Assembly: GCA_015231755.1 (NCBI GenBank)
Contig: JADGAZ010000010.1
Location: forward strand, 62,001 to 126,000
From: Magnetococcales bacterium
GTDB lineage: Bacteria > Pseudomonadota > Magnetococcia > Magnetococcales > Magnetaquicoccaceae
Reading direction: 5' to 3'
DNA length: 64,000 nucleotides
The notes below the pieces were generated by a model. That model had not been told where the DNA came from, searched no databases, and saw only the letters and a program-made list of their open reading frames with translations. The stretch's first letter is position 1; each line of letters opens with the position of its first letter. Made by a program: the position numbers and the translations under genes. Positions 37,795 through 55,684 of this stretch are shown in pieces.

Positions 37795-37933
37795 GGGCAT
37801 GGGGTCGCGGTATCGAAATTGAGGCTGGATCCTGGACGGGATGGGGCGTATTTTGTGATGTATTGATGTTTTGATCCTGTTGGGGGTTACGGATCAGACC
37901 GCTATACCACATTTGAAAATTGAGGAATCTTCC

Positions 37934-40021
37934 ATGCCCATCGTTCCGGAAATCAGTCAGTTGCGCAACATCGCCTTGATCGCCCATGGTGGCGGGGGCA
38001 AGACCACGTTGGCGGAGTCGTTGTTGTTCAACGGGGAGGCGATTGCGCGGCGTGGGGATGTGGACAAGGGAACCACGGTGATGAGCAGCGAGCCCGAGGA
38101 GATCGAGCGGCGTGTCACCATCACGCCGCATGTCGGGCATTGTGTGTGGCGGGATCGCTGGTTCAACTTGGTGGATACCCCTGGTTACATTGATTTTCTG
38201 GAATCGACCCGCAGTGTGTTGGATGTGGTGGGCGGGGCGGTGATGATTTTTTCCGGGGAGGTTGGGGTCAAGTCGGAGAGCGAGCGGCTTTGGGCCATGG
38301 CCGAGGAGGCGATGGTGCCGGTGATTGGATTCATCAACAAGCTGGACCGGCCTCGTGCGGATTTCATTCGTGCGTTGGGGGTGATCGAGTCCCGGTTGCG
38401 GGTGACGGCCTTGCCGTTGACCATTCCCATCGGGGTGGGGGAGCATTTCGGGGGTATTGTGGATTTGATTCCCATGACCGCCTGGTCGGCCCGTGACGGG
38501 GTATTTTGTCAGATCGATTTGCCCGAGAGCGCCCGGGCGGATGCCGAATATTATCGGACCCAGTTGGTGGAAAAGATCGTGGAGGGGGATGACGTGTTGT
38601 TGGAGCGTTATCTGGCCGACGGCACGGAGCCTTCTTTGGAGGTGTTGCATCGGGGGTTGCGGGAGGCGGTGATCACCCGGCGTTTGCTGGTGTTGTATTG
38701 CGGATCCGGGGCGGCCAATATTGGTGTGCGTTCTTTGGCCAATGGCATTGCCGAGTATCTGCCCAGTCCGTTGGACAAGGCGATGATCAAGCCTTTGAAG
38801 GGGGTGGATCCGGAGCATCCCGGTCGGGTGGTGGTGCGTGTTCCGGCGGTTACGGAGCCATTTTCCGCGGTGGTTTTCAAGACGGTGATGGATCCGTTCG
38901 CCGGCAAGTTGACGGTGATCCGGGTTTTTTCCGGGGTATTGGAACTGGAACAGCCTTTCCTGAACGGCACCCGCAATGTCAAGGAAAAAGGGGGGCGATT
39001 GTTTCGGTTGCAGGGTCGGGAGATGATTCCGGTGAATCGGTTGGGTGTGGGGGAGATGGGGGCCATTGCCAAGTTGGAGGGGGTGCATACCGGGGATACC
39101 TTGTGTGCGGTGGATCATCCGATTCGTTATGAGCGGGTGGTTTTTCAGGATCCGACCCATACGTTTGCCGTGGAGACCGATGCCAAGACCGAGGAAAAGG
39201 TGGCGATGGGATTGGAGAAACTGGTGGAGGAGGATCCCACTTTGCGGTTGCGGCGGGATCCGGTGACCCATGAGTTGATTCTATCGGGTATGGGGCAGAC
39301 CCATTTGCGGGTGGTTTTGGATCGGCTCAAGCGCAAGTACGGGGCGTGTGCCACGTTGAAGATGGCGCGGCCACCGTTTCGCGAGACCATCACCAAAAAG
39401 GCGCGGGTGCAGGGGAGGCTCAAGAAGCAGACCGGCGGTCGGGGGCAATTTGCCGATTGTTGGTTGGAGATCGAGCCATTGCCGAGGGATGGGGGATATG
39501 AGTTCGAGAATCGCATTGTGGGGGGTGTGATTCCCCGTCAGTTTGTGCCGTCGGTGGAGAAGGGGGTTGTCGAGGCTTTGGAGCAGGGGGTGATTGGCGG
39601 TTATCCGGTGGTGGATGTGCGGGTGGCGTTGGTGGATGGCAGTCATCATTCGGTGGATTCCTCGGATCATGCGTTCAAGAGTGCCGGGGCCATGGCGTTG
39701 CGCAAGGGATTGGCGGAGGCGGGATCGGTATTGTTGGAGCCGGTGATGACCATGGAGGTGACGGTTCCGGAGGATGTGTTGGGGGATGTGATTGGGGATT
39801 TGAACAGTCGGCGTGGTCGGGTATTGGGGGTGATGCCCAAGGGGGGTGGTGGTCAGATCGTTTCCGCTGAGGCGCCGATGGTGGAGGTTTTGGATTATGG
39901 GAATGTGTTGAACGGGCTGACTTCGGGGCGGGGGCTTTATACCATGCGGCTTGCGGCGTATCATGTGGCGCCGAATCATATTGCGCGGGTGATTCTGGAG
40001 CAGGATAAAAAAGCCTCCTGA
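37934..40021 (+). CDS. Elongation factor G-like GTPase (FusA2 type)
   Basis: A 695-aa translational GTPase. G1 AHGGGGKTTL, G3 DTPGY and G4 NKLD are present, then domains II-V. G1 lacks the usual GHIDHGKTT form, and the EF-G switch I RGITI is replaced by ERRVTIT, as in EF-G paralogues such as mycobacterial FusA2. It is therefore probably not the main elongation factor. The start at ATG 37934 is preferred to 37871. The codon bias is strongly G-rich. Confidence 0.85.
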   Translation: MPIVPEISQLRNIALIAHGGGGKTTLAESLLFNGEAIARRGDVDKGTTVMSSEPEEIERRVTITPHVGHCVWRDRWFNLVDTPGYIDFLESTRSVLDVVGGAVMIFSGEVGVKSESERLWAMAEEAMVPVIGFINKLDRPRADFIRALGVIESRLRVTALPLTIPIGVGEHFGGIVDLIPMTAWSARDGVFCQIDLPESARADAEYYRTQLVEKIVEGDDVLLERYLADGTEPSLEVLHRGLREAVITRRLLVLYCGSGAANIGVRSLANGIAEYLPSPLDKAMIKPLKGVDPEHPGRVVVRVPAVTEPFSAVVFKTVMDPFAGKLTVIRVFSGVLELEQPFLNGTRNVKEKGGRLFRLQGREMIPVNRLGVGEMGAIAKLEGVHTGDTLCAVDHPIRYERVVFQDPTHTFAVETDAKTEEKVAMGLEKLVEEDPTLRLRRDPVTHELILSGMGQTHLRVVLDRLKRKYGACATLKMARPPFRETITKKARVQGRLKKQTGGRGQFADCWLEIEPLPRDGGYEFENRIVGGVIPRQFVPSVEKGVVEALEQGVIGGYPVVDVRVALVDGSHHSVDSSDHAFKSAGAMALRKGLAEAGSVLLEPVMTMEVTVPEDVLGDVIGDLNSRRGRVLGVMPKGGGGQIVSAEAPMVEVLDYGNVLNGLTSGRGLYTMRLAAYHVAPNHIARVILEQDKKAS

Positions 40022-40054
40022 CGAAGGGAAGGCCCGATCCGATTCGATCCGATA

Positions 40055-40116
40055 CCATTGAAAAAAAGCGGGGGTCTGGGGGATTCGTCCCCCAGACCCC
40101 CGCTTTTTTTCAATGG
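40055..40116. repeat. Nested inverted-repeat element, copy 6 (minimal single palindrome)
   Basis: A perfect palindrome with 29-base arms and loop TTCG. The arm runs CCATTGAAAAAAAGCGGGGG then TCTGGGGGA. On the plus strand it ends C-rich stem then T7, 34 bases after the EF-G-like stop, so it can serve as that gene's terminator in either direction. Confidence 0.9.
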
Positions 40117-40267
40117 CGCGTTTTTTTTCGCCAGCCCGCCTTTTTTCGCCATCTTGAAAAGAAATCCTTGCCCACGTAAAAAAGAGTCAAGAAATCCTCT
40201 CGATTGGACGATCCAATAGTTAACAACAACGTATGGAGACTCACTCGGATTACACAACGAGGGCAAA

Positions 40268-40474
40268 ATGATCAGCGTATCCCATCCAGTCTTGTTGCAA
40301 CTCTACCGTCGGGTGGATCGCGCCCGCTCGGTCAGACAGGTGGTGGAACCCGGAACCGGGGTGCAGGCGCGGATCTCCACTTCCAATCAATCCTATTCCT
40401 CGGGTCGCGCCTCCGAAGGCGAAGGGAACGATTTCCAGTCCGTGTTCCTCAAAGCCTTGGAAAAACGGGAATAA
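40268..40474 (+). CDS. Small hypothetical protein
   Basis: A 68-aa frame with CGAGGG before the ATG, ending 10 bases before the lipase-like gene, so probably in its operon. It is polar, Ser/Arg/Gln-rich (RASEGEGNDFQSVFLKALEKRE at the end in pieces), without signal peptide or membrane helix. Not recognised. A palindrome ATTGGA-CGA-TCCAAT at 40203-40217 lies upstream. Confidence 0.5.
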   Translation: MISVSHPVLLQLYRRVDRARSVRQVVEPGTGVQARISTSNQSYSSGRASEGEGNDFQSVFLKALEKRE

Positions 40475-40484
40475 ACAGGCGATC

Positions 40485-41300
40485 ATGAAACCCTGGCACG
40501 CATGGGGCGCAACCCTGGTCTCGCTCCTGCTCTCCGGAGCCGCCGGACCTGCGCGGGCCGATGTGGCCATTTTTGTCCATGGATATTTAAGCGGGGATGA
40601 CGCCTGGGAACAAAGCGGCGTCACCCCCGCTCTTAAAACCAAAGGCTGGGAGTCCGGCGGCAGCGTGACCGCAATGGCCCAGGGCGGATTGCAGTTCCGA
40701 AATACCCCGCCCAAAGGTGCCCACGCCTTTTTTCTGGCCGACTTGCCCTCCGAAGCCCCATTGCTGACTCAAGCAAACGCCCTGAAGGAAATCCTGCTTG
40801 CCATCCGCGCACAACGCGGCACCGAACGCACCTTCCTGATCGGCCATTCCGCCGGTGGCGTGGTGGCCCGATTGCTCATGGTGCGTGAACCCGGCTTGTC
40901 GATTCATACCCTGATCACCATCGCCAGCCCCCATCTCGGTACGGACAAAGCCGAAGTGGCCGGACTCATCGCCAGTACCCCCCTCTCCATGATGGCCCCG
41001 ATGATGGGCATGGATACCCTCAACCGCTCCAAATCCCTCTATGAAGACCTCGCACGGGAACGCCCCGGCACTTTTCTCCACTGGCTCAACCATCAACCCC
41101 ATCCCAAAGCCCGCTACCTCTCCATCGTCCGCCGCGACACACCCAGCTTGCTCGGCGACAACCTGGTGCCGGTCTGGAGCCAGGACATGGCCCAAGTGAC
41201 CGCCCTGCGTACACTGACCCCGGAAACCATCACCCAAGGTCAAGACCATACCCTCACCCCCCAGGACGGGGCGGAAGTGGCGCGGATTCTGGCACCGTAA
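40485..41300 (+). CDS. Exported alpha/beta-hydrolase, lipase-like
   Basis: A 271-aa hydrolase. The signal peptide (MKPWHAWGATLVSLLLSG) ends at ARA. Oxyanion motif FVHGY, nucleophile elbow GHSAGG, and ITIASPHLGTDKAE are typical of PGAP1/triacylglycerol-lipase-like enzymes; the catalytic His is probably in QDHTLT. It should act in the periplasm or outside the cell. Substrate unknown. Confidence 0.82.
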   Translation: MKPWHAWGATLVSLLLSGAAGPARADVAIFVHGYLSGDDAWEQSGVTPALKTKGWESGGSVTAMAQGGLQFRNTPPKGAHAFFLADLPSEAPLLTQANALKEILLAIRAQRGTERTFLIGHSAGGVVARLLMVREPGLSIHTLITIASPHLGTDKAEVAGLIASTPLSMMAPMMGMDTLNRSKSLYEDLARERPGTFLHWLNHQPHPKARYLSIVRRDTPSLLGDNLVPVWSQDMAQVTALRTLTPETITQGQDHTLTPQDGAEVARILAP

Positions 41301-41509
41301 CGAAAGAATGAAAAACGGGTTGCCAAAAGGCGATCCGCCACCTTTTCGAATCAGGATGGAATCGATAGAGTCCATTTGGATTCCAATGCCGGACGCAATT
41401 TTTCATGGCATGTCACCCGTAATGGCTTTACCCTTCCACACAAGGTCGCTTCACAAGGTGGCAACCGGGATGAACCGGGTGGTATTCCCTCATTGATTTA
41501 GGAGATTCG

Positions 41510-42220
41510 ATGGATGCCGTAGCTTCCTCGGAAACCTATTCGTCATCCGTGGCCGAGGCGGATGTCTACGCACGCTGGATTCTGGCCCACTTCGCCCCCT
41601 ATCTGATGGCCCCCATCGTGGAGGTGGGGTTGGGACATGGGGGATTCGTCGGGCAATTGCTGCCGCTTGGATCCTATGCGGGACTGGATATCGATCCGGA
41701 ATCGGTCTCCCAGGCCCAGGCCAAATATCCGGATGCGCGCCTGATCACGGCGGATATCACCCGTCTGGAACAGTTGACCCCCATCGGTCTGGGACAGGCG
41801 CGCACGGTTTTGTGCTGCAATGTCTTGGAACACGTCCAAGACGACCGGCAGGGGGTGAGCAATCTGCTGGCTTTGCTCGCGCCGGGGGGACATCTGCTGA
41901 TGCAGGTGCCGGCCCATCCCCTTTTGTATAACGATCTGGATCGGCTGGCCCATCATCACCTGCGTTATGGACGCCAAAGACTTCTGCAACCCTTCGCAGG
42001 CCAGCCGGCGGAGGTGCTGTCGGTGGAATTTTTCAATCCCATCGGCTTTTTTGGCTGGCTGGCGAATCGCTTCGTCTCCCATCAAAGCCTCAACGGGGCG
42101 TCGGTCAGTTTTCAGACCCGCCTGTTCGTGAACCATCTCCTGCCCCTGTCGCGCCTGCTGACTCCCCTGACGCGCCATTTTTTTGGGCAATCACTCATGC
42201 TGGTGGCGAAAAAAATATGA
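41510..42220 (+). CDS. SAM-dependent methyltransferase
   Basis: A 236-aa class I methyltransferase. Motif I is IVEVGLGHGGFVGQL (about residues 35-49), GLDIDPESV is the acidic strand end, and CCNVLEHVQDD is the family's VLEHV motif. AGGAGATTCG precedes the ATG. The stop overlaps the glycosyltransferase start (ATGA 42217), so the two are translated together. A role in methylating a glycan or lipid-linked sugar is inferred. Confidence 0.85.
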   Translation: MDAVASSETYSSSVAEADVYARWILAHFAPYLMAPIVEVGLGHGGFVGQLLPLGSYAGLDIDPESVSQAQAKYPDARLITADITRLEQLTPIGLGQARTVLCCNVLEHVQDDRQGVSNLLALLAPGGHLLMQVPAHPLLYNDLDRLAHHHLRYGRQRLLQPFAGQPAEVLSVEFFNPIGFFGWLANRFVSHQSLNGASVSFQTRLFVNHLLPLSRLLTPLTRHFFGQSLMLVAKKI

Positions 42221-43074
42221 TCAGCTTTATCATTCCCGCCCTCAACGAAGGGTCGGCCATTGCCGCAACCGTGGATCAGTGTCTGGACGTGGCCCGCAAA
42301 CACGGCCTGGAACCGGCGGAAGTGGTGGTGGTGGATGACGGCTCCAACGATGGCACCGGCGAAATGGCCGCCCGCCAGGGGGCGCGGGTGATCCGCCATC
42401 CCGTTCCGGGAGGCTATGGCAATGCCTTGAAAAAAGGTATCCTGGCCGCCAGCTACGATACCATCGTGATTCTGGATGCCGATGGCACCTATCCGGTGGA
42501 ACGGGTGCCGGAAATGCTGCAACGCTACTCTTTGGGATTCGACATGGTGGTGGGACAGCGTACCGGTCCCCACTATCGGGAGTCCGCCTTCAAGTCTCCC
42601 ATGCGGGCCGTGCTGCGCATGCTGGTGGAGTTCACCACCGGACAATCCATCCCGGATGTCAATTCCGGACTGCGGATTTTTTCCAAAGAGACCGTGCTGT
42701 CCTATCTGCCCCGGCTGTGCAATACGTTCAGCTTTACCACCTCGTTGACCCTGGCTTATTACATGACGGGCCGGTTCGTGGATTATTTGCCCATCGATTA
42801 CCACTCCCGCCTCGGACAGAGCAAGGTGCGCCTGCTGCGGGACTCTTTGCGCACGCTTCAGTACATCATCGAAGCGGTTTTGTATTACAATCCCATGAAA
42901 ATTTTTATCCTGATGAGTGGGTTCTGTCTGCTGTTGTCGCTGTTTTTCATCGTGGGTGCCCTGTTCACCAAGATGCTGAGTTTTTTTATTCTGGGGTTGG
43001 GTAACATTTTCATGGCGATGCTGATTTTTTGCATCGGGCTTTTGGCGGTGCAACTCAAGGAGCTGATGCGGTGA
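42217..43074 (+). CDS. Glycosyltransferase family 2, polyprenyl-phosphate type
   Basis: A 285-aa GT-A enzyme. It opens ISFIIPALNEGSAIAATV, has VVDDGSNDGT and the DXD-like LDADGTYP, then two C-terminal membrane helices (FILMSGFCLLLSLFFIV and AMLIFCIGLLAVQL). This layout is like dolichol/undecaprenyl-phosphate mannosyl- or glucosyltransferases (DPM1/GtrB). It likely charges a lipid carrier for surface-glycan decoration. Confidence 0.87.
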   Translation: MISFIIPALNEGSAIAATVDQCLDVARKHGLEPAEVVVVDDGSNDGTGEMAARQGARVIRHPVPGGYGNALKKGILAASYDTIVILDADGTYPVERVPEMLQRYSLGFDMVVGQRTGPHYRESAFKSPMRAVLRMLVEFTTGQSIPDVNSGLRIFSKETVLSYLPRLCNTFSFTTSLTLAYYMTGRFVDYLPIDYHSRLGQSKVRLLRDSLRTLQYIIEAVLYYNPMKIFILMSGFCLLLSLFFIVGALFTKMLSFFILGLGNIFMAMLIFCIGLLAVQLKELMR

Positions 43075-43104
43075 GCGGCAACCGCCAGAGGTTCGGCTGA
43101 TCCC

Positions 43105-45021
43105 ATGTGCGGTATCGTCGGTCTGTTCTCCCCTGGAGACCCCCAGCGGGTGTGGGATCAGGAAAAATTGCGCGCCATGCTCGCGGCGCTGAGCCATCGG
43201 GGTCCGGATGGCCAGGGCATGCATGTCGAACCGGGGGTGTTTCTGGGACATACCCGTCTGGCGGTGCTGGATCTGTCGGCGGCGGGCAAGCAGCCCATGT
43301 TTTCCCGGGATTATCGTTACATTATAAGTTTTAATGGTGAAATTTATAATTTTCAATTGTTGCGCCAGGAGCTGACCCGGCGGGGTCACGACTTTTTGAC
43401 CCAGACCGATACCGAAGTGCTGTTGGCCGCCTGGGTAGAGTGGGGAGCCGCCTGTTTGGGCAGGCTGGATGGCATTTTCGCTTTCGCCGTGTTCGATCGA
43501 AAGGAGCGGACCCTGTTTTTGGTACGGGATCATCTGGGGGTCAAGCCGCTTTTTTACTGGAAAAGTTCACAACTGCTGGCTTTTGCCTCCGAGCCGCTGG
43601 CGATGTTCGGGCCGGTGATCCCGTTGCCGGAAGTGAATGCCGGAGATCTGGATGGCTATTTCACCTACAATTATTTGCCGGGGCCGGGTTCCGGACTGAA
43701 AAATTTGCGGCAACTGCCTCCGGGACATCTGCTGAAAATTTCTCCGCAGGGAGAGCGGTTGACCCGATATTGGCAACTCGCCTGCCCCGCGACGCCGTTG
43801 CCCTGGAACCGGGAGCTGGTGGAGCGGTTCGGGGAACTGGTGCAACGCTCTGTCACCGGACAATTGGTTTCCGACGCTCCCCTGGGACTGTTCTTGTCCG
43901 GAGGTCTGGATTCCACCACCGTGGCCTTGGCCGCGTGGCAGTCTGGTCGGCATCCGGTGGCCTATTGTTTGGGGTTCGAGCAGACGGGTTTCGACGAAAC
44001 GCCGGCGGCCTCCGCTTTTGCCTCTCATTTGGGATTGGCGTTGCAGGGGGAGGTTTTTTTCTGGTCGGAGTCGGAGATCCGCACCACCCTGGAAGCGATG
44101 CGGGAATTGCACGCGGACGCTTCCTGTTTTCCGACCTTTCAGTTGTCCCGGCGGGCGCAGCGGGATTGTACGGTGATTTTGGCCGGCGACGGCGGGGATG
44201 AACTGCTGGCGGGATACGATACCTACAAGGCCGGAGAGCTGACTCCGTGGATTCGCAGGATTCCGGAAATTTTGCGCAAGACCGCTTTGGCCATGACCCC
44301 CTTGTTGCCGGCGGATCGACAGCGCTACAGTCCGCGTATGGTGCTGGAGCGGCTGTTGGCTTCGGCGGATGCCGGACCGCGACGGGATCACGCTTCGTTT
44401 CGGCGCATTTTTTCCGATGCCCTCAAGCAACGGCTCTACCAGCCGGACTTCTGGCAGGCGGTGCGTGGCAAGGATCCGGTGGGGGATTATGTGGCCAAAA
44501 TGGACGAAGTGCCGGCGGAACGCTCCTACCTGACCGCCCGCCAGTATGCGGATCTGCACCATTTTCTTCCCGCCGTGCTGGCCAAGGTGGATCGCATGAG
44601 CATGGCCAATGGCCTGGAGGTGCGGGTTCCTTTGTTGAGCCGGGAGCTGGTGGAGTTCTGTTTTCAACTGCCCGACGAGGCCAAGCGGCAGGGGGGCAAG
44701 GGCAAACGGATCATGCGGGATTTGCTGGTCAATCGGGTTCCCCCCGGTCATCTGCAACGTCCCAAGGCGGGTTTTTTGCCTCCGGTGGATGGGTGGTTCC
44801 GGCATCCCGGGCCGATGTTCGGGGTGTTCCGGGAACATCTGGAGTGGGCGCGGAATCATGGGGTGGGCTGGCTGCGTTGGCACGAGGTGGAACAGGTCTG
44901 GGAGGAGCATCAGCAGGGGCGGTTGAACGCGGGATTCGTCCTGTTGGGGATTTTGCAGTTCATCAACTGGTCCGGTCATGCCCGTGGGTGTGGTCTGAAA
45001 CAAAACGGGAATTTTTGCTGA
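43105..45021 (+). CDS. asnB: Asparagine synthase, glutamine-hydrolysing
   Basis: A 638-aa amidotransferase. N-terminal nucleophile MCGIVG, with SHRGPDGQ and FNGEIYN of the class II glutaminase domain. The synthetase domain has the PPi loop LSGGLDSTTVAL and GDGGDELLAGYD. Such proteins in sugar clusters often amidate uronic acids and not aspartate, so in this setting it could act on a glycan. It lies 30 bases after the glycosyltransferase. Confidence 0.88.
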   Translation: MCGIVGLFSPGDPQRVWDQEKLRAMLAALSHRGPDGQGMHVEPGVFLGHTRLAVLDLSAAGKQPMFSRDYRYIISFNGEIYNFQLLRQELTRRGHDFLTQTDTEVLLAAWVEWGAACLGRLDGIFAFAVFDRKERTLFLVRDHLGVKPLFYWKSSQLLAFASEPLAMFGPVIPLPEVNAGDLDGYFTYNYLPGPGSGLKNLRQLPPGHLLKISPQGERLTRYWQLACPATPLPWNRELVERFGELVQRSVTGQLVSDAPLGLFLSGGLDSTTVALAAWQSGRHPVAYCLGFEQTGFDETPAASAFASHLGLALQGEVFFWSESEIRTTLEAMRELHADASCFPTFQLSRRAQRDCTVILAGDGGDELLAGYDTYKAGELTPWIRRIPEILRKTALAMTPLLPADRQRYSPRMVLERLLASADAGPRRDHASFRRIFSDALKQRLYQPDFWQAVRGKDPVGDYVAKMDEVPAERSYLTARQYADLHHFLPAVLAKVDRMSMANGLEVRVPLLSRELVEFCFQLPDEAKRQGGKGKRIMRDLLVNRVPPGHLQRPKAGFLPPVDGWFRHPGPMFGVFREHLEWARNHGVGWLRWHEVEQVWEEHQQGRLNAGFVLLGILQFINWSGHARGCGLKQNGNFC

Positions 45022-45029
45022 TGGGATCC

Positions 45030-45117
45030 AGGGGCGCCAGGAAAGGCGTGTGTATTCAGCGGGTGTAAATCCCGCCCGTGCGCTGGTAGCGACAGGGTAC
45101 GGGACCGAGTCTTTGGG
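45030..45117 (+). other. Possible 5' fragment of a group II intron
   Basis: GGCGCCAGGAAAGGCG and TTCAGCGGGTGTAAATCCCG followed by GGTAGCGACAGGGTAC resemble the start and domain I of bacterial group II introns, from memory. It stops where the IS66 remnant begins. No reverse-transcriptase gene is present. Confidence 0.2.
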
Positions 45118-45335
45118 GTAACCGTTCAGCCCAGTAAAATGCTTCAGGCGGCATGAAGCATCAAAACAGTCTACCTGGGAAAGAGCGAAGGGGTGGGCTT
45201 GTCTCGCAAATCCGCATCGATTGCTTGTATCAAGAATTCAAGGACGTTGCGTTTTTGTTGGCGAGAAGTAGCAGCCACACTCATGATCGCGTTCCGCGAA
45301 ATGACCCCCTGCTGCTTACTGGGCTGAACGGTTAC
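45118..45335 (-). mobile_element. IS66-family remnant 1 (MITE-like, 218 bases)
   Basis: It begins GTAACCGTTCAGCCCAGTAA and ends with the exact reverse complement. The GTAA tip is typical of IS66 ends. Inside, on the minus strand (to 45171), lies the C-terminus of an IS66 TnpC: SRQQKRNVLEFLIQAID...KPTPSLFPR. The rest of the transposase is missing. Flanking octamers (TCTTTGGG, CAAGATTA) do not match, so no target duplication is left. It is about 85% alike to the second remnant at 48365 over the shared part. Confidence 0.8.
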
Positions 45336-45343
45336 CAAGATTA

Positions 45344-48274
45344 TTATACTCCGATTTTGCTTCTCAGGTATGCACACTCCAAAGCCAGCGCTTCTTCATA
45401 CCTGATTCCATACCTGTTTCCTTTTTTGGTTACAAGTTGCTGTTCGCCAGTATCAAACATTTCAACGTTCTCATTTCCGTTTTCGTCAACAACCAATCTG
45501 CGTTCCATGACCGGCTTGAATTCATCTTCCCACTCATCGTAACACAACAACCCATAATCGAAAGCGTTCAAGCCTTCAGATTCAAAGGCCTCTTTCACCG
45601 TCTGGGCAATCAGACCGAAATGCCAACGTGCGCCGTCGCCCTTCTTTTCAACCGCGCTGTTGAATTTGAATTGCCCGTAATTCACCTTTCCCCAAGCACG
45701 CAGCACGGCATCGTCGATCGGCTTGAATTGTTGCTTTTCGCGCAGGTCTGAAGTGTTGATCGTCCCGGTTCCGGCATAGACGACAGCCCACCGCTTGGCA
45801 GCAGTGCCCAGATTGTCGGTGTTGTCACGATTGGAACGGGTACTTCCTGCCGTTTTATCAACCATGAAAAGAACAGTTCCGGCGACATTTCCAACGATAA
45901 AATCACCATTCCCATAAAACTCCGTGGTTCCAGCCAAACCACTTCCACGCGCCGAACCGCTCAAATACATTGACGCAGCAGATAATGATTTGCTTGACGA
46001 CATCATAAGATACGAAGTGTCGTTATCTCCAGTAATTCCTCCTGTAGAACCGGAAGTGAAAATAACCTTGCCGGAAAATTTGCCAGCAGAATTTGGGATG
46101 CTGAACGGGTCAACATTGAATGACCATTTGTTGCCAGGCGTATGCCCGGTTGTTGCTATAAAATCAATCACCACCCCTTCAGAAATGGTTTGAGGTGATC
46201 CGGTGATCGAAACTCCGGTCGCGTTCCACACCAAACCGCCGCTATCGCTCCATTTAAAAGTATTTGGTGATGTATCCCCATCAATCTCAAACACGAACTC
46301 CCTGAAGAGCGATCCGGTGAACAGGGTGGTTTGATCAACGATCATGTCATTCAAGCCGGACCCGGTGAACGTGACATTCTCAACAACAGGAGATGTGATC
46401 ACATTCTTGGTCAATCCACCATTGATTCCGTTGTAAAATACCTGCCGTGCATTCAGCTTTGATTCTGTGCATGAGCTTCTGATGATGAGGTTGTGACTGA
46501 GCAATGAGATCTCAGATTTGTTGATTTTGAAGAAGCTGGATGGATGTTCCAGTGCTGTTCCAAAGATCTGCGCACCATCAAGAGTTACATTGTCATCAGT
46601 GTATACATAATAAGCTGTACTGGTTACTTGACCAATCTTGCAGTTGACAATTCTCAATCCTTTGAGAGCATACGTACCAGAAGTGCTGATGTGAAATACA
46701 TTCACAGGAGGCGTGCCCGCCGTACTTGCTTCACACCCGACATCCTCAAATGTGATGTCACCGGCAGTGCCAACCGTGCTGCTTGGATCTCCAGACATGT
46801 GAATGTGAATATGGTCGCTGTTGGCACCGGAAGTCATCCCGGTAAATCCTCCCTTGAAAGCCCATCCCCCACACCCAAGGGTCCAATCCATGTAAATGGC
46901 AGCGCTATTGGCAGTTTGAGCTTGATGAACAAAGCGGAATCCGTAAAGTTGGTTGGAATAATTGGAACCGGATACCAAACTGTCAACGGAGAGATCGTCA
47001 TTTTTTGAAGAATAAAAGCAATATTTTGCACCGCCGCCAACGATCAGCGCATGAAGCCTGACACAGGTAACCTCTTCGGAAGCGATACTGTAAATGGCCG
47101 CCTCGGTGAAATACCCGGCAACGGTCACCTGTTCAAAATAATGCATTCCAGATGAAGATTCGCTTGACCTGCCAAGGCAAAGGCCAGTTTTGGGCGTGGT
47201 GGTGGTGTCTCCATAGAGGCAAATATTTTGAATCGAGTCCTGGCTTGCCCCTTTGCAACTCACCACCGCTGCGCCGGTGTGCTTCCCGATGATGCACGTC
47301 CCCTCAATATTGGTCAGGCCTGCGCCACGAAGCGGTCCGGGCCGGTCTCCTTCGCCTCTGAAGGTGATGTTTTCCGGCATATAGATCGTTGACGTTGTGA
47401 GATAATTCCCCTGCGGGAAATAAAGCAATCCGCCCCCGTTCGGTCCAATGCTTTGGACTGCCGCGATGGCATCATTGATGGCATCCGTGTCGTCCGTCGC
47501 CCCGTCACCTGCCGCGCCGAAATCCTTGACATTGATCACACAGCATTCGGTGACCGTCTCCCAGGTGCTGCCGGTATAGACCTTCATCCGGTCTCTGGTG
47601 GTGTTGAAATAGAGATCGCCATTCTGCAATGATGATGTGTTATTGCGGGTAGCGGGGTCAGAAGTTTTCGGGCCAAGGTACACATCAGAAAAATTCGTCA
47701 CGTCGGCCACGTTGTCGGCCACGGTGGTGATGTTTGCGGCGATTCCGGCCACGATGTCGATATCGGCGATGACGTCCACCACCGATTCCACCGAGGCGAT
47801 TTCAGGGCCGGCAATCGGTAATCCATCCTCATCGAACGCCAGCACCACCCCGGCCCGGGAAGCGGCCACCGGGAGTACCATCGCAGGTGATCCCGCATCC
47901 ACATCCGGAGCCATCAAGGTGCGGTCCACCCTGTCCTTGAGCCTCTGGGTAATCATGGTGAGCCGGTCAAGGGACTGCTCATGAGTGCCTGCTGGGACAG
48001 GGTCGTTGGCGACATAATCGATTTCCTGCGTCAAAGCAGGGTCGCGAAAGATGATCACCTCCAGCGCGGACGCCGGAGCGGTCAGGAAGGTTACCGTGCC
48101 CCCGGTATCAACCCCGGTCCCCGATACCGTGTAATGGGTGGTGATCGTCTGGAGAACCCCGCCTTTGTAAACCTTCAGATCCTCGCTGGCGAGAAAATAA
48201 AAAGGAACCGTGAATGCCGTTGTGGAACCGTCACCGGCATATTCAACCCTGCTCGTAGTCACCGAAACCGTCAT
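45344..48274 (-). CDS. Phage-type tailspike with pectate-lyase-like and S74 chaperone domains
   Basis: 976 aa. Residues 1-125 (SRVEYAGDGSTTAFTVPFYF; EQSLDRLTMITQRLKDRVDR) resemble the T7 tail-fibre adaptor. A hydrophobic helical stretch with VVDVIADIDIVAGIAANI follows. Near residue 250 FGAAGDGATDDTDAINDAI starts a right-handed beta-helix of the pectate-lyase superfamily. The last 110 residues (TSDLREKQQF; ARWHFGLIAQTVKEAF) match the peptidase S74 intramolecular chaperone, which cleaves itself off after trimerisation. It is visibly less GC-rich than neighbours, with no other phage gene nearby, and is bracketed by two IS66 remnants. It should bind or degrade a polysaccharide. Confidence 0.88.
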   Translation of the reverse strand: MTVSVTTSRVEYAGDGSTTAFTVPFYFLASEDLKVYKGGVLQTITTHYTVSGTGVDTGGTVTFLTAPASALEVIIFRDPALTQEIDYVANDPVPAGTHEQSLDRLTMITQRLKDRVDRTLMAPDVDAGSPAMVLPVAASRAGVVLAFDEDGLPIAGPEIASVESVVDVIADIDIVAGIAANITTVADNVADVTNFSDVYLGPKTSDPATRNNTSSLQNGDLYFNTTRDRMKVYTGSTWETVTECCVINVKDFGAAGDGATDDTDAINDAIAAVQSIGPNGGGLLYFPQGNYLTTSTIYMPENITFRGEGDRPGPLRGAGLTNIEGTCIIGKHTGAAVVSCKGASQDSIQNICLYGDTTTTPKTGLCLGRSSESSSGMHYFEQVTVAGYFTEAAIYSIASEEVTCVRLHALIVGGGAKYCFYSSKNDDLSVDSLVSGSNYSNQLYGFRFVHQAQTANSAAIYMDWTLGCGGWAFKGGFTGMTSGANSDHIHIHMSGDPSSTVGTAGDITFEDVGCEASTAGTPPVNVFHISTSGTYALKGLRIVNCKIGQVTSTAYYVYTDDNVTLDGAQIFGTALEHPSSFFKINKSEISLLSHNLIIRSSCTESKLNARQVFYNGINGGLTKNVITSPVVENVTFTGSGLNDMIVDQTTLFTGSLFREFVFEIDGDTSPNTFKWSDSGGLVWNATGVSITGSPQTISEGVVIDFIATTGHTPGNKWSFNVDPFSIPNSAGKFSGKVIFTSGSTGGITGDNDTSYLMMSSSKSLSAASMYLSGSARGSGLAGTTEFYGNGDFIVGNVAGTVLFMVDKTAGSTRSNRDNTDNLGTAAKRWAVVYAGTGTINTSDLREKQQFKPIDDAVLRAWGKVNYGQFKFNSAVEKKGDGARWHFGLIAQTVKEAFESEGLNAFDYGLLCYDEWEDEFKPVMERRLVVDENGNENVEMFDTGEQQLVTKKGNRYGIRYEEALALECAYLRSKIGV

Positions 48275-48364
48275 TTTTGGATTCCTTTGATATTTGTCAT
48301 GGTTGAAGCGAGGGCTTGTTTAAACGCCTGTCCAGGCCCCCACCAATAGGAAGTCCCATGTTTC

Positions 48365-48861
48365 GCAACCGTTCAGCCCAGTAAAATATTGCAGGCGGCA
48401 TGAAGCATCAAAACAGTCTACCTGGGAAGGCGCGAAGGAGTGGGCTTGTCTCGCAAATCCGCATCGATTGTCTGTATTAAGAACTCAAGGACGTTGCGTT
48501 TCTGTTGGCGACAAGTAGCAGCCACAGTCAGTTTCCGCTTCACGGACGGAGGATCTCGCGACGGAGGCTTGGATGAAATGCTGGAGTTCTTCCGTCATCA
48601 CTCCTCCAGCATTTCCACCTTCCGCATCAATTCCGCAATCTGCTTTTGCTGTCGGGCAACCCGTGCCCGCAGTTCCTGGTTTTTTTTCCGCAGACGCTGA
48701 TTTTCATCACGAGAGGCACCGGTTCCCCTCCTGGAGGTGCCTGTTCTCATCGATCAAAAACCGAATGTTCAACTCCATGATGTCGTCCATGGATGAGAAT
48801 CTAACCGTTGATAATCATATTGTCAAGGCTTGGTGACTTCTTTTCTGATCTAAACGGTTAC
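48365..48861 (-). mobile_element. IS66-family remnant 2 (internally deleted element, 497 bases)
   Basis: One end is GCAACCGTTCAGCCCAGTAA; the other reads CTGATCTAAACGGTTAC, a 14-of-17 match to the first inverted. Between them only the two tips of a transposase survive. Orientation is the same as remnant 1. Flanks CATGTTTC and TAAAGATC show no target duplication. Its right end touches the stop codon of the ThDP enzyme. Confidence 0.82.
48418..48785 (-). pseudogene. tnpC: IS66 transposase TnpC, broken remnant
   Basis: Read leftwards, MDDIMELNIRFLIDENRHLQ begins the N-terminal coiled coil. A frameshift leads to DENQRLRKKNQELRARVAR, then a stop, then RKNSSISSKPPSRDPPSVKR, the NSSxSSKPPSSD signature of IS66 TnpC. 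The catalytic centre is deleted and the frame joins TVAATCRQQKRNVLEFL and the C-terminus PTPSRLPR. It cannot make an active transposase. Confidence 0.8.
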
Positions 48862-50687
48862 TAAAGATCTTGAGACTTGGCATGTAGAGGAATCAACATA
48901 TTTTTTTTCAATTCATCTCGGGATAGGAGAGGAGAAAGGTCTTCCAGGGGGGGGGAAACGATTTTTCCGGTTTTGTCGATGGCCAGAGACAATTTCGGAT
49001 AGAAATATTGTTCCGGATCCATGAAAATATCACAGATGATGGGTCCATCTGCATTCTGGATTGGATCAATGGTGCTGTTAAACTCATTCCAGTTGCGGAT
49101 AGAAAAATAGGGGATGCCGAAGGCGTGGGCGATTTTCTTGAAATCCGGGCAGGTGACGCCGGTGTCGGCATTGACGGCGGTATACTGTCCTTTGAATAGA
49201 TTTTTCTGGGTGTGCTTGATCATCAGGTAGCCATCATTATTGAAAATAAATAATTTTATCGGCAGGCGGTGATGGGCGATAGTCTGTAGTTCCTGAAAAT
49301 TCATCATCATGCCACCATCGCAGTTGAGGCAAAGGATCTCACCTTTATTCAGGGCAAAGGAGGCGCCGATGGCAGAGGGTAGGCCATAGCCCATCTCTCC
49401 CAGTCCGGTTGATGTCATGAGGCGTTGTCCTTGTTTGATGCGGATGGCCTCGTGACCGGAGAGTAGCGCGGTGCCCATGTCGGTGGTGATGACCTGATCT
49501 GCCTTGAAGTGGTCGCAGAGCTTGTCTATGACTTGATAGGAGTTCAGAAAGCCGTTGCTTTCCTGATGTTCCGGGCCGACCAACGGATAGCGGGTTCGGC
49601 ACTCCACGCAGTGTCGGGTCCAGTCATTGACTGGATTCGGATTCAGAGGGTTGGCCGCAAAGCGGTGGATGAGGGCTTCCAGGAATTGGCCCGCATCGGC
49701 CAGGATGCCGACATCGGCCAAGTCAGCGGTTTTGGTCAGTTCGGTGGCGTCGATATCGACTTGGATGATTTTGCCTTCGCGGGCAAACTCCGAATGTTCG
49801 TAGCCGATCATGGGAATGGCCATGCGGTTGCCGATGGCGATCACCAGATCGGCATTTTGTACCACGAAGTTGGCGGCACGATTGCCATAGACCCCTGCGC
49901 GACCAAAATTGAGGGGATGGGCATCATCGAGCATATCGATTCCCGCCCAGGTCACCAGGGTGGGAATTGGGCAGAGTTCGAGCAGGTATGTAATGCGATC
50001 AGTGGCGCCGGCCAAGCGGATGCCGTGTCCGAGCCAGAAGACCGGTCGTTTGGCGGCGCGTATGAGTGTTTCGACTTCATCCATCTGGTTTGGCGTGGGG
50101 GTGGGTAGTGCGGTGGGAGTGCTTTCGGGCACGAAATGGTTGAACTGTTTGGCAGGCAGGAAGGCCCCCTGGATATCCATTGGGTAGTCGATCCAAACTG
50201 GTCCCGGTCGACCGCTTCCGGCGATGTGGTATCCTTTTTCCAGTTCGAAGATTGCCTGTTTGGGATCCATGATCCGTGCGGCATATTTGGTGATGGTTCG
50301 CACCATTTCAGTGCTGTCGTATCCCTGTATCCCCCACATGCGCATGCCCTGCATGGAGTTGATAAATCGAGTATTCTCCTGTCCGGAAATCACGATTCCC
50401 GGTAAGGAATCGGCCCAAGCGCTCATGACTCCAGTGATGGCGTTTGAACTCCCCCCTCCGGCGGTGACCAGGGCGGCGGTGATTTTGCCGCAGACCCGAT
50501 AGTAGGTCTGCATGGCCATGGTGGCGGCCTGTTCGTGGTGGACGCAGATGATTTCGGTGTAGCCTAGATTGTTGATTGAATCGAATATGTGGGAGTTTGC
50601 TGAACCAATGATCCCGAAAACATGACGAATTTCATTTGTTTTTAAAAATTGTGCGATGGCGTCGCTTACTTTAATGTTGTCTGACAT
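48861..50687 (-). CDS. ThDP-dependent enzyme, acetolactate-synthase-like
   Basis: A 608-aa protein with the three-domain layout of acetolactate synthase/pyruvate oxidase. The catalytic glutamate is in VHHEQAATMAM (about residue 52), VTAGGGSSNAITGV follows, and the ThDP/Mg motif is CDGGMMMNFQELQT...NNDGY with Cys for the first Gly of GDG. It lacks a neighbouring small subunit, and such stand-alone homologues occur in surface-sugar clusters. The last base of its stop codon is the terminal base of the IS66 remnant, so the C-terminus may have been altered. Confidence 0.83.
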   Translation of the reverse strand: MSDNIKVSDAIAQFLKTNEIRHVFGIIGSANSHIFDSINNLGYTEIICVHHEQAATMAMQTYYRVCGKITAALVTAGGGSSNAITGVMSAWADSLPGIVISGQENTRFINSMQGMRMWGIQGYDSTEMVRTITKYAARIMDPKQAIFELEKGYHIAGSGRPGPVWIDYPMDIQGAFLPAKQFNHFVPESTPTALPTPTPNQMDEVETLIRAAKRPVFWLGHGIRLAGATDRITYLLELCPIPTLVTWAGIDMLDDAHPLNFGRAGVYGNRAANFVVQNADLVIAIGNRMAIPMIGYEHSEFAREGKIIQVDIDATELTKTADLADVGILADAGQFLEALIHRFAANPLNPNPVNDWTRHCVECRTRYPLVGPEHQESNGFLNSYQVIDKLCDHFKADQVITTDMGTALLSGHEAIRIKQGQRLMTSTGLGEMGYGLPSAIGASFALNKGEILCLNCDGGMMMNFQELQTIAHHRLPIKLFIFNNDGYLMIKHTQKNLFKGQYTAVNADTGVTCPDFKKIAHAFGIPYFSIRNWNEFNSTIDPIQNADGPIICDIFMDPEQYFYPKLSLAIDKTGKIVSPPLEDLSPLLSRDELKKNMLIPLHAKSQDL

Positions 50688-51054
50688 GGGAATCCGTTAT
50701 TTTTAAGTGGTTGGAAGTGGTTGTAAATTATGTCTTAATGGTTTTTGAAATGCCAATAATTGAACGATAATACGCAGGATGGCTACATATCGTCAAGAAT
50801 AATTTGTTCCGAGTTACAGCGGGATTGGGCTTTTTGGGAGCAGGGGAAAAGTCGGCTTTGATACGTGCGCGGAAGGGCGAATGCCGTGTCCACAAAGAGT
50901 AAGAGGTGAAATTTCAGGAAGGATTTTCAGGTGATCATCTATTTTTCATTGGTGGAGAGCGGGTGGGAGCTGGGGGATGTTGGAAATCTGTTGGCGCTCG
51001 GCCCCGGTTTCATGCATCCTTGCATAAAAACCGGGGCCGAGCGTTAAACGGGGA
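50688..51054. other. Intergenic region with a long hairpin after phaC
   Basis: No gene is supported. CGCTCGGCCCCGGTTT (50995-51010) and its exact complement (51028-51043) form a 16-base-pair stem, with ATGCA/TGCAT able to pair in the loop. It lies 11 bases beyond the phaC stop and probably protects or ends that transcript, although there is no T run. The left part is AT-rich and holds the upstream region of the ThDP gene. Confidence 0.6.
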
Positions 51055-52119
51055 TTAACCCCGTTCCTTCAACCAGTTGGCGATGGCCGGCGGGATCTCT
51101 TTTTGGGAGCGTCCGCTGACGTACACGCCGATGTGGCCGCCATTGAAGGCCACTTCCTGGTAATCGGAGCTGCCCACATACTGCTTGAGGGCCTTGGAGG
51201 CGTCTGGGGGGACCAAGTGATCCTTGGTCGCGTAGACGTTGAGCACCGGCATGGTGATGTTGGCCAGATCCACGCGCCGTTCACCGATTTTGATATTGCC
51301 TTTGATCAGTCCATTTTTCTGGAAGAAATCCTTGATGAATTGACGGAACGCCTCACCCGCCTGATCCGGCGAATCGAAGATCCATTTTTCCATGCGCAGG
51401 AAGTTCTTCAATTTCACCTTGTCATCCAGAAGATCCACCATATCCAGATATTTCTGGCCGGTGAGACGGTAGGGATTCATGGACAAGAAGGTGACATTCA
51501 GCAGATCACCCGGGATGTTGCCCATGGTATCCACCAGCAGATCGATATCCAGATTGCGCACCCATTGGCTCAACAGGTTGTCCGGGGTGTGGAAGTCCAC
51601 CGGGGTGACCATGGTGACCAGATTGCGCACCCGGTCGGGATGCAGCGCGCTGAAGCACAGGCTGAAGGCTCCGCCCTGACAGATGCCCAGGACGTTGACC
51701 CGATAGATGTCGTGGCGATCCCGGATGAAATCCACGCACCGCTTGATGTACCCGTTGATGTAGTCATCCAGGTTCAAGAAGCGATCCGAGGCGTCCGGAT
51801 AGCCCCAGTCGATCAGGTAGACATCCATGCCTTCGTCCAGCAGACCCCGGATCATGGAGCGGTCTTCTTGCAGATCGGTCATGTAGGGGCGGTTGACCAG
51901 GGCGTACACCACCAGAATCGGCACCCGATGGGGATTTTCCACCCGGGGGACATAGTGGTACAACGTCACCTTGTCGTCGCGAAAAACCGCTTCCTTGGGG
52001 CTGATGCCAGACTCGATCTGACCCACTTCGGTGAAGGTTTTGACTCCGGCAGCGAGTTTCTGGTTGAATCGGGCCAGCTCCTCAACCGCCTTTTCCGGAT
52101 TGATGGCGAACGGGAACAT
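51055..52119 (-). CDS. phaC: Class III polyhydroxyalkanoate synthase, PhaC subunit
   Basis: Polymerises 3-hydroxyacyl-CoA into PHA granules. The 354-aa length and start match class III (Allochromatium) PhaC. The lipase-like box GICQGG carries C147; D300 (YATKDHLVPP) and H329 (NGGHIGV) complete the triad. GAAAGGAG precedes the ATG. It follows phaE by 3 bases, its required partner. Confidence 0.95.
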   Translation of the reverse strand: MFPFAINPEKAVEELARFNQKLAAGVKTFTEVGQIESGISPKEAVFRDDKVTLYHYVPRVENPHRVPILVVYALVNRPYMTDLQEDRSMIRGLLDEGMDVYLIDWGYPDASDRFLNLDDYINGYIKRCVDFIRDRHDIYRVNVLGICQGGAFSLCFSALHPDRVRNLVTMVTPVDFHTPDNLLSQWVRNLDIDLLVDTMGNIPGDLLNVTFLSMNPYRLTGQKYLDMVDLLDDKVKLKNFLRMEKWIFDSPDQAGEAFRQFIKDFFQKNGLIKGNIKIGERRVDLANITMPVLNVYATKDHLVPPDASKALKQYVGSSDYQEVAFNGGHIGVYVSGRSQKEIPPAIANWLKERG

Positions 52120-52122
52120 GGA

Positions 52123-53367
52123 TTATTCTCCTTTCTGGGCGGGCGCGGTGGGGGCCGGAGCCGTTTGGGGCTTGGCGTTGCCAATGCGCACTGTCTTCTT
52201 GATGGCCAATTTGTCCGCCGATTCGGCGCCGTTGTCCGCGGGAGCGGTGAGAGCCTCTTCGACTTGCAGCTTCAAAGCGGTCAGCTCTTCCCGCAAGCGG
52301 CGCACGCCGAGTTTTTCCATGTCGTCACGCAGGGTATTGATTTCTGCGCTGGCATCCTTGCTTTGCAATTCGTGGAGGGTATCCTCCAGGTTTCCGACTC
52401 GGCGGCGCAGCGTGCTGATTTGACGATGGGCACTGTCCAGTTCGCGACGGGTCGGCAGATTCACCGCGGCCAGGGAGTTGTCCATCGTCTCGGCCATGTT
52501 GCGGCGGACCCGCATCATGGCGTTCATCATCCGTGAATTGATTTCGTTGAATTCTTTACTGGTTACGGTGGCGGCGTTGGCCTCTTCGTTGCAGTCCACC
52601 CACAGCACGTAAAGATCCCGCATGGTCTGCATCGACTTGCCTTCGGCTCCCATTTCCAGGAGTTTGCGATGCAGCAGATCCAAAGCCCGTTTGGAGGAGT
52701 CGTTCATGAGTTTCTGGAACTCTTCAAACGCCTTGCGATACTCCAGGGACAGACGCATCCCTTCTTGGACTTTTTCTTGTTTTTCCCGGTTCAGGCCCAG
52801 ACCCGGCATGGACAGAAAGCGCGACAGCGCCTCTTCGGTGGCCTGTCCGCCGGCGAGCAGCGCCCGCATGGTATCGTTGGAGAAGGCTGGATTGGAGCCG
52901 AGAAATTCGGTCCAGGCTTTCATCGGACGGCTCATGAAGGCGGTCATCTCCTCCATGTTGCCCATCTTGCCCATGCCGCCCAGATTGCCGAACATGGATT
53001 GGGTGCCCTGGGCGAACATCGCTTTGGCCTGTTGAATCGCCTTGTCGAGTTGGCTGGTCCACTCCTGGGTGACATTGCCGCTGTCCGACAGACCCTGAAA
53101 GACCTTGAAAACCTCACGACCCATCCGCATGAACTCTTCCATGGAACCCATGGCATGACGCATGGCCATGGCTTCGGGGGTCTGGGTGGGGGCGGCGAAT
53201 GGATTGGGCCAGCGGTTCATCCCATCGCGGAAAAAGCTCATCGGGCTTTCGGTCTGCCAGGCATTGGTCCAGTTGCTTTGGGTCGTATTCGACCAATCTT
53301 CCCACATTTTGCGTTGCAGGGTGTTCCACCCGGTCATCCAGTCAGCGGAAAACGGATTGTTGTCCAT
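52123..53367 (-). CDS. phaE: Class III PHA synthase, PhaE subunit
   Basis: A 414-aa partner of PhaC. The N-terminal half is helical and rich in Met/Trp (WMTGWNTLQRKMWEDWSN), with the FLSMPGLGLNREKQEK block typical of PhaE. The C-terminal part from about residue 300 is a coiled coil (HRQISTLRRRVGNLEDTL) and ends in an Ala/Pro tail. ATG 53367 has GGAG nine bases upstream; a TTG two codons earlier is less likely. Confidence 0.9.
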   Translation of the reverse strand: MDNNPFSADWMTGWNTLQRKMWEDWSNTTQSNWTNAWQTESPMSFFRDGMNRWPNPFAAPTQTPEAMAMRHAMGSMEEFMRMGREVFKVFQGLSDSGNVTQEWTSQLDKAIQQAKAMFAQGTQSMFGNLGGMGKMGNMEEMTAFMSRPMKAWTEFLGSNPAFSNDTMRALLAGGQATEEALSRFLSMPGLGLNREKQEKVQEGMRLSLEYRKAFEEFQKLMNDSSKRALDLLHRKLLEMGAEGKSMQTMRDLYVLWVDCNEEANAATVTSKEFNEINSRMMNAMMRVRRNMAETMDNSLAAVNLPTRRELDSAHRQISTLRRRVGNLEDTLHELQSKDASAEINTLRDDMEKLGVRRLREELTALKLQVEEALTAPADNGAESADKLAIKKTVRIGNAKPQTAPAPTAPAQKGE

Positions 53368-53592
53368 GCTCAACTCCTTAATGAGGATTTATCAAAAAAA
53401 GGATATCACCAGTTGGTTTTATCGATATTCTCAGACGCGATTTTGACAAACCCAATGATATAAAGCGTATTTGTGGCTCTGTTTGTACACACGAGAATAG
53501 GTGGCGCGTCCCTGCGCCGTTACAGCCGGGCCGAAGTTCCGCCTTGCGCCAAAGACGCAGGTCGTCGCAACGCCGATTTGGAATAAAACGAC

Positions 53593-53952
53593 TTATTCCA
53601 GACCCGCTTTGGCCTCTTCCACCAGCTTGGTGATGTTCTTTTCGATCAGATCCTTCAGCTCGTTCTGGCCCTGGGTCAGGACATCCATGGTCCGTTTGGC
53701 ATTGTCCACCATCATTTTGCCCAGGTTGGTGGCGATGTCCGCCTGGGTGGAGACCGCTTCCTGGATGGTTTTGGCGGAGCTCAGATCCTTGAGCTGTCTG
53801 GCACCGGCGGTGATGAAGCCTTCCGCCGCTTCGAGTTGCTGTTTGGTCAGTTCCTGCACAGTGCGGTCGTTGATGCGTTGCAAATCAGAGATGGAATCCA
53901 TCATCTTTTTGGTCAATTCCGTCATGCGCTCGGCAACCTTGTTATTGTCCAT
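53593..53952 (-). CDS. Phasin-family PHA granule protein
   Basis: A 119-aa all-helical protein (EGFITAGARQLKDLSSAKTI, VDNAKRTMDVLTQGQNELKD) of the phasin type that coats PHA granules. AAAGGA precedes ATG 53952. It lies within the pha cluster between phaR and phaE; a 225-base gap separates it from phaE. Confidence 0.85.
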   Translation of the reverse strand: MDNNKVAERMTELTKKMMDSISDLQRINDRTVQELTKQQLEAAEGFITAGARQLKDLSSAKTIQEAVSTQADIATNLGKMMVDNAKRTMDVLTQGQNELKDLIEKNITKLVEEAKAGLE

Positions 53953-54084
53953 GGCTTGAGTCCTTTGTCGATTGAGTTCACATGTCGTTGCAGAATTGCT
54001 GCAATGCAACAATGGTGCGATGCAGCATAAAGGAACGATGGGGCAGTGTCAAAGATTTTTTTTGGGGGTGATGCGATTTTTGTC

Positions 54085-54561
54085 TCATCCCCGTTCTGGA
54101 GGGGTATCCTCTTTTTTCTTGACGGCGCCGCCAAGCGTCAGCGAGAAGATCCCCCCTTGCAGCGAGTGCCACATCTCCAGGTTGCGCCGTCCCATCTCAT
54201 TGATCAGGCTCAAAGGATCCGGCGCGGATTGGAAGAAGGTTTTTTGATCCATGAAGGCGTCCAGGCTCTGTTTCATCCATTCCCCCAACGCTTCTTGCAA
54301 CGTGTCTCCGTAGAAACGGATGATCAGTTGCAAGGCGTCGGAGTCGAAGACCGGACGACCCTTGTCTTCCTGTTCGCTGATGATCTGCAACAGGATCAAC
54401 CGGGTCAGGTCTGCTCCGGTGCGGTTGTCCACCACCTGGAACGGGATGCGGTTCATGACCAGATCCCGCACCCCGTCCAGTGTGATGTAGGCCGACTGCT
54501 CGGTATCGTACAGGCGTCGATTGGCGTATTTTTTTATGATGCGAACCGGTGTCTCATCCAT
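54085..54561 (-). CDS. phaR: PHA synthesis repressor PhaR
   Basis: A 158-aa regulator. The N-terminal DNA-binding domain is clear: RIIKKYANRRLYDTEQSAYI and LDGVRDLVMNRIPFQVVD. PhaR binds both DNA and PHA and represses phasin and pha genes until granules form. The start is uncertain between ATG 54561 and ATG 54582. Confidence 0.9.
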   Translation of the reverse strand: MDETPVRIIKKYANRRLYDTEQSAYITLDGVRDLVMNRIPFQVVDNRTGADLTRLILLQIISEQEDKGRPVFDSDALQLIIRFYGDTLQEALGEWMKQSLDAFMDQKTFFQSAPDPLSLINEMGRRNLEMWHSLQGGIFSLTLGGAVKKKEDTPPERG

Positions 54562-54605
54562 AATAAAAAGGTTGCCCCCCATGGTCGCCTGTGAATGGAT
54601 ACCGA

Positions 54606-55352: not shown

Positions 55353-55684
55353 GATTCCGTTCTCCTCAAGTTGCCGGTTGTCCCTTTGATTGAAATTACC
55401 TCGGATTGTTCCCGATTGGCGCGGAAAGCCCCGCACCTGCGCGGCTCGGGTCACGCCCCTTGATCTGTGTTGCCGACCTTGCCGGCTTTTCGGTGGACTG
55501 AAAAGCCGATTTTCATGCCTGACAGTCTGATCTATGGGTAAGTTATGTTAATTACCTCTTTTTCGACCGTTTGAAAAGGGAACGTTTATCGCTCCGCTTG
55601 TTTTGTTGGGGTGGGGCGTGTCATAGTGGGAATCTGGGGGGAGTGGATCAGGCCTGGGCGGTGGGGTCAGGAGGACAAAGGGAC
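55353..55684. promoter_or_regulatory. Divergent intergenic region between phaB and the hybrid kinase
   Basis: It must hold both promoters, though no clear pair is seen. CGGCTTTTC (55483-55491) and GAAAAGCCG (55500-55508) form a hairpin of unknown role. AT-rich GTTATGTTAATTACC at about 55541 could be part of a promoter. Confidence 0.35.

Follow-up and report, generated by a model that had tools for sequence, protein, structure and literature searches.

An intact podovirus-type tailspike gene bordered by IS66-family remnants in a Magnetococcales genome

The DNA analysed here (the window, a stretch of 64,000 nucleotides in contig C10 of G000, the 3.84-Mb, 44-contig Magnetococcales MAG of a magnetotactic-type coccus) contains an intact gene for a podovirus-type tailspike. 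This gene was probably acquired horizontally and stranded, free of any prophage, in a roughly 6-kb accessory segment, the edges of which were trimmed or joined by IS66. Our comparisons show the foreign origin of the gene, the absence of a prophage, the occurrence of the gene at two sites and its IS66 borders; the trimming itself would have proceeded by IS66 insertion, by adjacent deletion or by recombination between IS copies. A first-pass annotation of this DNA had likened the gene to the cargo of a composite transposon. The cargo was indeed found to be foreign, and its homology to a second copy of the gene extends just to the IS66 borders. However, a strict composite transposon is not supported, since the remnant ends carry no octamer duplication, the assembly contains no full DDE domain and the left remnant is a hybrid; moreover, the unit is present in one copy and the empty site in a sister species is larger than the unit.

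The tailspike gene and its neighbourhood

As judged from its profile matches, the product of the uninterrupted ORF is a podovirus-type tailspike (Table 1). Residues 1-112, which match PHROG tail families (1640: 4e-33), correspond to the virion-anchor domain of T7-like tail fibres; the match of the same residues to Pfam Phage_T7_tail (9e-5) was slightly below the family cut-off. Residues 247-367, a candidate part of the right-handed beta-helix body typical of such tailspikes, match Pect-lyase_RHGA_epim, of the pectate-lyase/rhamnogalacturonase family (7e-17); an AlphaFold single-sequence model had a mean pLDDT of 36, too low to be of use. The Peptidase_S74 chaperone was recognised by PF13884 (1e-14), and SDxxxK, the catalytic motif of this chaperone (PMC10769870), is kept as SDLREK at residue 842. 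No signal peptide was recognisable on inspection, made by eye and with no dedicated predictor, the maximum hydropathy over 15 residues being 0.87 within the first 45 residues. The GC content of the gene is 51% and its GC3 56%, as compared to about 56-62% and 63-77%, respectively, in the neighbouring host genes. Within the right IS66 remnant a sigma-70-like promoter, matched by consensus only, points toward the gene, and it could allow expression of the tailspike.

GenBank phages have only the ends of the protein in common with it: the anchor is shared with Pelagibacter podoviruses (for residues 1-238, 47% to HTVC034P in the matched pieces) and the S74 part with many phages, and no close relative was found for the central receptor region (about residues 370-780). 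A relative matching both ends is present on an IMG/VR contig (L068), in what resembles the late operon of a podovirus, where the order of genes is internal virion protein, tailspike, further tail genes and holin. A closer phage source was found neither in IMG/VR nor in GTDB contigs or GenBank phages, and the donor sequence was not found. The full gene is present in 2 of the 48 genomes of the class.

Profile searches of the neighbouring genes revealed EF-G, an esterase, a methyltransferase, a glycosyltransferase and an asparagine synthase (asnB) on one side, and a TPP-dependent enzyme, phaC, phaE, a phasin and a sensor kinase on the other. All neighbours tested were host genes, with no capsid, portal, terminase or integrase among them, which agrees with the first-pass annotation (no capsid, portal or integrase nearby). 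In profile searches, the podovirus portal PF12236 was absent throughout G000 and also from its congener G010; it was present in two other genomes (G019 and G025), whose fibres match the N-terminus of the tailspike only. A prophage or prophage remnant at the locus was rejected because of the lack of further phage genes there and of PF12236 in the genome, and a source prophage elsewhere in G000 was rejected on the negative portal search. Nor was a complete prophage with the tailspike seen at the same locus in relatives, an observation that had been named beforehand as one that would contradict the transposon-like reading. G000 has a single copy of the tailspike gene and a single IS66-tailspike-IS66 unit.

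An Rfam search of window positions 36000-56000 gave no structured-RNA match. This region includes the roughly 95 bp that separate asnB from the left remnant (45022-45117); they are G+C-rich and structured-looking (GCGGGTGTAAATCCCGCC...), differ from the sister species and had no Rfam match. We also observed a roughly 50-bp interspersed repeat, which lies in either orientation in the window (at about 8293, 12110, 12237, 14741, 17355, 34926, 35002, 40061, 40076, 58557 and 58652) and recurs on the asnB-bearing contigs of G005, G006 and G010; it represents a REP-like family of the genus.

Table 1. Features of the tailspike locus (window coordinates)
Feature	Position	Strand	Remarks
Accessory segment	44994..50990	.	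Missing in collinear sister species G006, which has 221 bp of unrelated intergenic DNA instead
Left IS66-family remnant	45118..45335	+	183 bp of left end fused to inverted copy of left terminus
Tailspike gene	45344..48274	-	976 aa; uninterrupted, intact ORF
Peptidase_S74 intramolecular chaperone (residues 842-901)	45572..45751	-	Profile match; motif SDLREK at 842
Pectate-lyase-like region (residues 247-367)	47174..47536	-	Profile match
N-terminal phage tail-fibre anchor domain (residues 1-112)	47939..48274	-	Profile and PHROG matches
Tailspike leader	48275..48364	-	Shine-Dalgarno-like AAAGGA; common to G010 copy up to about 48363
Right IS66-family remnant	48365..48861	+	Left end, internal deletion, transposase start (frameshifted), normal right end
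Sigma-70-like promoter match	48798..48826	-	TTGACA-17-TAGATT, inside right remnant, toward tailspike; consensus match only
TPP-dependent (acetolactate-synthase-like) enzyme	48861..50687	-	Complete C-terminus; stop codon abutted by right remnant

IS66-family remnants and the empty site in a sister species

The two remnants bracket the tailspike gene within 8 and 90 bp, and the 8 bases between the tailspike stop codon and the left remnant (45336-45343) are as the first-pass annotation had given them. The remnants align over 164 bp at 92% in direct orientation, far above chance, and only their left ends match. Their assignment to IS66 follows from a related copy in the sister genome G006, which has the same ends and codes for an IS66 transposase (NF033517, E=2e-40). 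Comparison with other copies indicated that the right end of the right remnant is normal for this IS, whereas the left remnant has, at its right terminus, its own left end once more, repeated exactly in inverted orientation, giving a 21-bp perfect inverted repeat. The left remnant is a left-end/left-end hybrid and not a simple internal deletion. Both elements had earlier been described as internally deleted with matching ends; this holds for the deletion in the right remnant and for the similarity of the left ends, but not for the left remnant as a whole.

The outer terminal ends of both remnants are present. The target duplication of IS66 is reported to be 8 bp, and intact IS66 copies in Agrobacterium carry such duplications (PMC6778807). 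The octamers at the four remnant ends are TCTTTGGG, CAAGATTA, CATGTTTC and TAAAGATC, and no pairing of them matches (best 5/8), with both orientations and shifted outer octamers tried. The outer pair, TCTTTGGG and TAAAGATC, at which the first-pass annotation had suggested looking for a duplication, is identical at 1/8 positions. A profile search of the G000 assembly found no full DDE_Tnp_IS66 domain. G000 contains several copies of this IS end, and since several IS copies are cut by contig ends, active ones may simply be unassembled. In the sister genome, a 9238-bp contig (G006:C98, L109) has right ends of this IS66 at both contig ends, with a tandem doubled end at the left, and represents an IS-bounded segment of 9 kb.

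Contig C57 of G006 follows the window collinearly, at about 93%, over 41404-44993 and again over 50991-57681; the window DNA between these two blocks covers the tailspike, both remnants and the neighbouring TPP-enzyme gene. As the sister species is devoid of this whole stretch, the accessory segment, located between asnB and phaC/phaE, exceeds the IS66 frame. The picture of a lone tailspike between two same-oriented IS66 remnants was thus borne out with respect to the gene, both remnants and their orientation, but the accessory DNA reaches about position 50990. Likewise, the empty site sought in relatives was found, but it is larger than the IS66 frame and includes the TPP gene. Shortening of the TPP gene by the IS was ruled out, because homologues can be aligned with it right up to the C-terminal end. 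The best homologue in the class is at about 38-40%, and there is no close relative in the genus. In two loci that we inspected, the neighbours of TPP homologues are neuB-like and nucleotide-sugar epimerase-like genes, which suggests a role in surface-glycan synthesis.

The second copy of the tailspike gene

The tailspike gene is present at two different chromosomal sites, each of them empty in relatives. The second copy is located on a 4275-bp contig (JADGBU010000255.1, C24, referred to as L010) binned to the congener G010; this contig shares window 45342-48363 at 98%, a block that corresponds almost exactly to the DNA lying between the remnants. No IS66 was found beside this other known copy, and it does not represent a tailspike in the same IS66 frame elsewhere, for which the first-pass annotation had suggested looking. 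The L010 site has a 55-bp motif on one side and a DUF1640 gene, truncated there beside a degenerate transposase, on the other; in both G000 (contig C1) and G006 (contig C114) the insertion interval is uninterrupted. The joined L010 flanks were rejected as an exact empty site, since only L010 itself matches them. The similarity of the two copies ends almost precisely at the junctions with IS66; these matching borders need no special mobile unit, as the window copy is cut by the IS66 ends and L010 runs into other DNA.

The two tailspike genes differ at 56 positions (1.9%), with 21 amino-acid changes. The corresponding rates (dN 0.009, dS 0.053, dN/dS 0.18) show constraint somewhere in the history of the copies, possibly while in a phage. 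There are no differences over 709 bp (window 45967-46675, gene positions 1600-2308), with a probability of 2e-5 under uniform change, and this identical stretch likely reflects exchange between alleles. The flanks of L010 are closer to G000 and G006 (55 bp at 98-100%) than the 69%-identical asnB of G010 predicts. The contig may therefore be misbinned, which makes the species carrying the second copy uncertain and leaves the finding of two sites unaffected.

Directly after the tailspike stop codon, L010 has a 127-bp element that forms a strong hairpin (3967-4094; z -5.6 as compared to shuffles) and is 75% related to an element located close to a phage-type tail operon in G002 (L079 6519-6658). 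An 11-bp direct repeat, CCGCACATGAT, encloses the hairpin together with the tailspike; it is the sole repeat of at least 10 bp common to both flanks and could be either an insertion footprint or a chance occurrence. Rfam gave no match in the L010 flanks. An integron cassette was rejected on inspection, since the downstream hairpin is devoid of the GTTRRRY/RYYYAAC core.

Origin of the locus and comparison with known systems

In the reading that we regard as probable, the tailspike gene would have entered the chromosome on a piece of phage or island DNA, and insertions of IS66 on both sides of it would then have followed. Adjacent deletion and/or homologous recombination between these copies would have removed the original flanks and, in the same events, joined the tailspike piece to the TPP-enzyme and asnB sides, with later decay of the elements; IS66-mediated deletion via homologous recombination has been documented in Agrobacterium (PMC6778807). 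Such trimming agrees with both the lack of matching octamers and the hybrid nature of the left remnant. It is weakened by the lack of a donor sequence, by the constraint indicated by dN/dS at some time (possibly in a phage), by the uncertain carrier species of the possibly misbinned second copy, and by the fact that matching IS66 ends at both borders would also follow from composite transposition with one target repeat lost. A true IS66 composite transposon, which brought the tailspike as a unit and had one outer octamer lost later via a small deletion or recombination, is doubtful. It would explain the closely bracketing, direct remnants with similar left ends, the end of homology to the second copy at the IS66 borders and the several copies of this IS end in G000, but not the absence of a target duplication in any pairing, the single unit in the genome, the left remnant finishing in an inverted left end in place of a right end, the oversized empty site of the sister species, or the tailspike copy without IS66. 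Alternatively, the tailspike itself could be a small mobile or repeatedly inserted unit (the gene with its leader and possibly the downstream hairpin), to which the IS66 remnants are secondary. This is unlikely, even though two different sites are each empty in relatives and the L010 copy, with a stably folding hairpin related to one near a tail operon, is bracketed by a direct repeat. No recombinase, terminal inverted repeats or known attC/Rfam motif was found, the window copy is without the hairpin, the 11-bp repeat may have arisen by chance, no more than two copies are known, and the IS66 cut in G000 simply explains the coinciding borders.

The phage virion anchor together with the lack of a recognisable secretion signal indicates that the tailspike is most likely a recent passenger and not a working host surface protein. 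Domestication, with the host keeping the tailspike as a glycan depolymerase, an adhesin or a decoy competing with the fibres of infecting podoviruses, is quite unlikely. The frame is intact and constrained in both copies, the chaperone motif is kept, a promoter-like site in the IS66 remnant is directed at the gene, homologues of the adjacent TPP enzyme lie beside surface-glycan genes in the two inspected loci, and bacterial S74 fibres exist in Bdellovibrio (PMC10769870). However, the N-terminus is a phage anchor that is not hydrophobic and includes no signal peptide, the gene is sparse in the class, the constraint may date from phage life and the identical stretch suggests exchange between alleles. 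Least likely of all would be a single-gene mobile tailspike of Magnetococcales, phage-free, inserted at varying chromosomal positions and with its anchor kept, that acts against infecting podoviruses, e.g. by replacing or competing with fibres on new virions.

Lone tail-fibre genes outside prophages are usually written off as debris. Here the same gene, constrained and phage-free, is present at two sites, each empty in relatives, so that the choice between a passenger and a retained tool becomes testable. The locus also indicates that a composite transposon can be mimicked by IS remnants whose ends abut neatly, even though the outer octamers and the empty site misfit.

Among known systems, the fibre and tailspike genes of podoviruses (T7-like) with S74, such as K1F-type endosialidases and the fibres of Pelagibacter HTVC phages, resemble the present gene in the anchor, the pectate-lyase-like region and the SDxxxK motif of S74. 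In contrast to them, it is located outside any phage genome with no phage genes alongside, and its central region is without a close relative. IS66-flanked composites and IS66-mediated deletions of Agrobacterium pAt (PMC6778807) are alike in having two direct IS66-family copies and in the use of IS66 as a substrate for rearrangement; here, however, there are short remnants, one of them a left-end/left-end hybrid, with no 8-bp duplications, and the cargo is one phage gene. The mosaic adhesive trimeric (MAT) fibres of Bdellovibrio (PMC10769870) are likewise cell-encoded S74 fibres with the SDxxxK catalytic motif. In MATs, a signal peptide is followed by a conserved 130-aa domain (PMC10769870), whereas the tailspike described here has no signal peptide and begins with a phage virion anchor.
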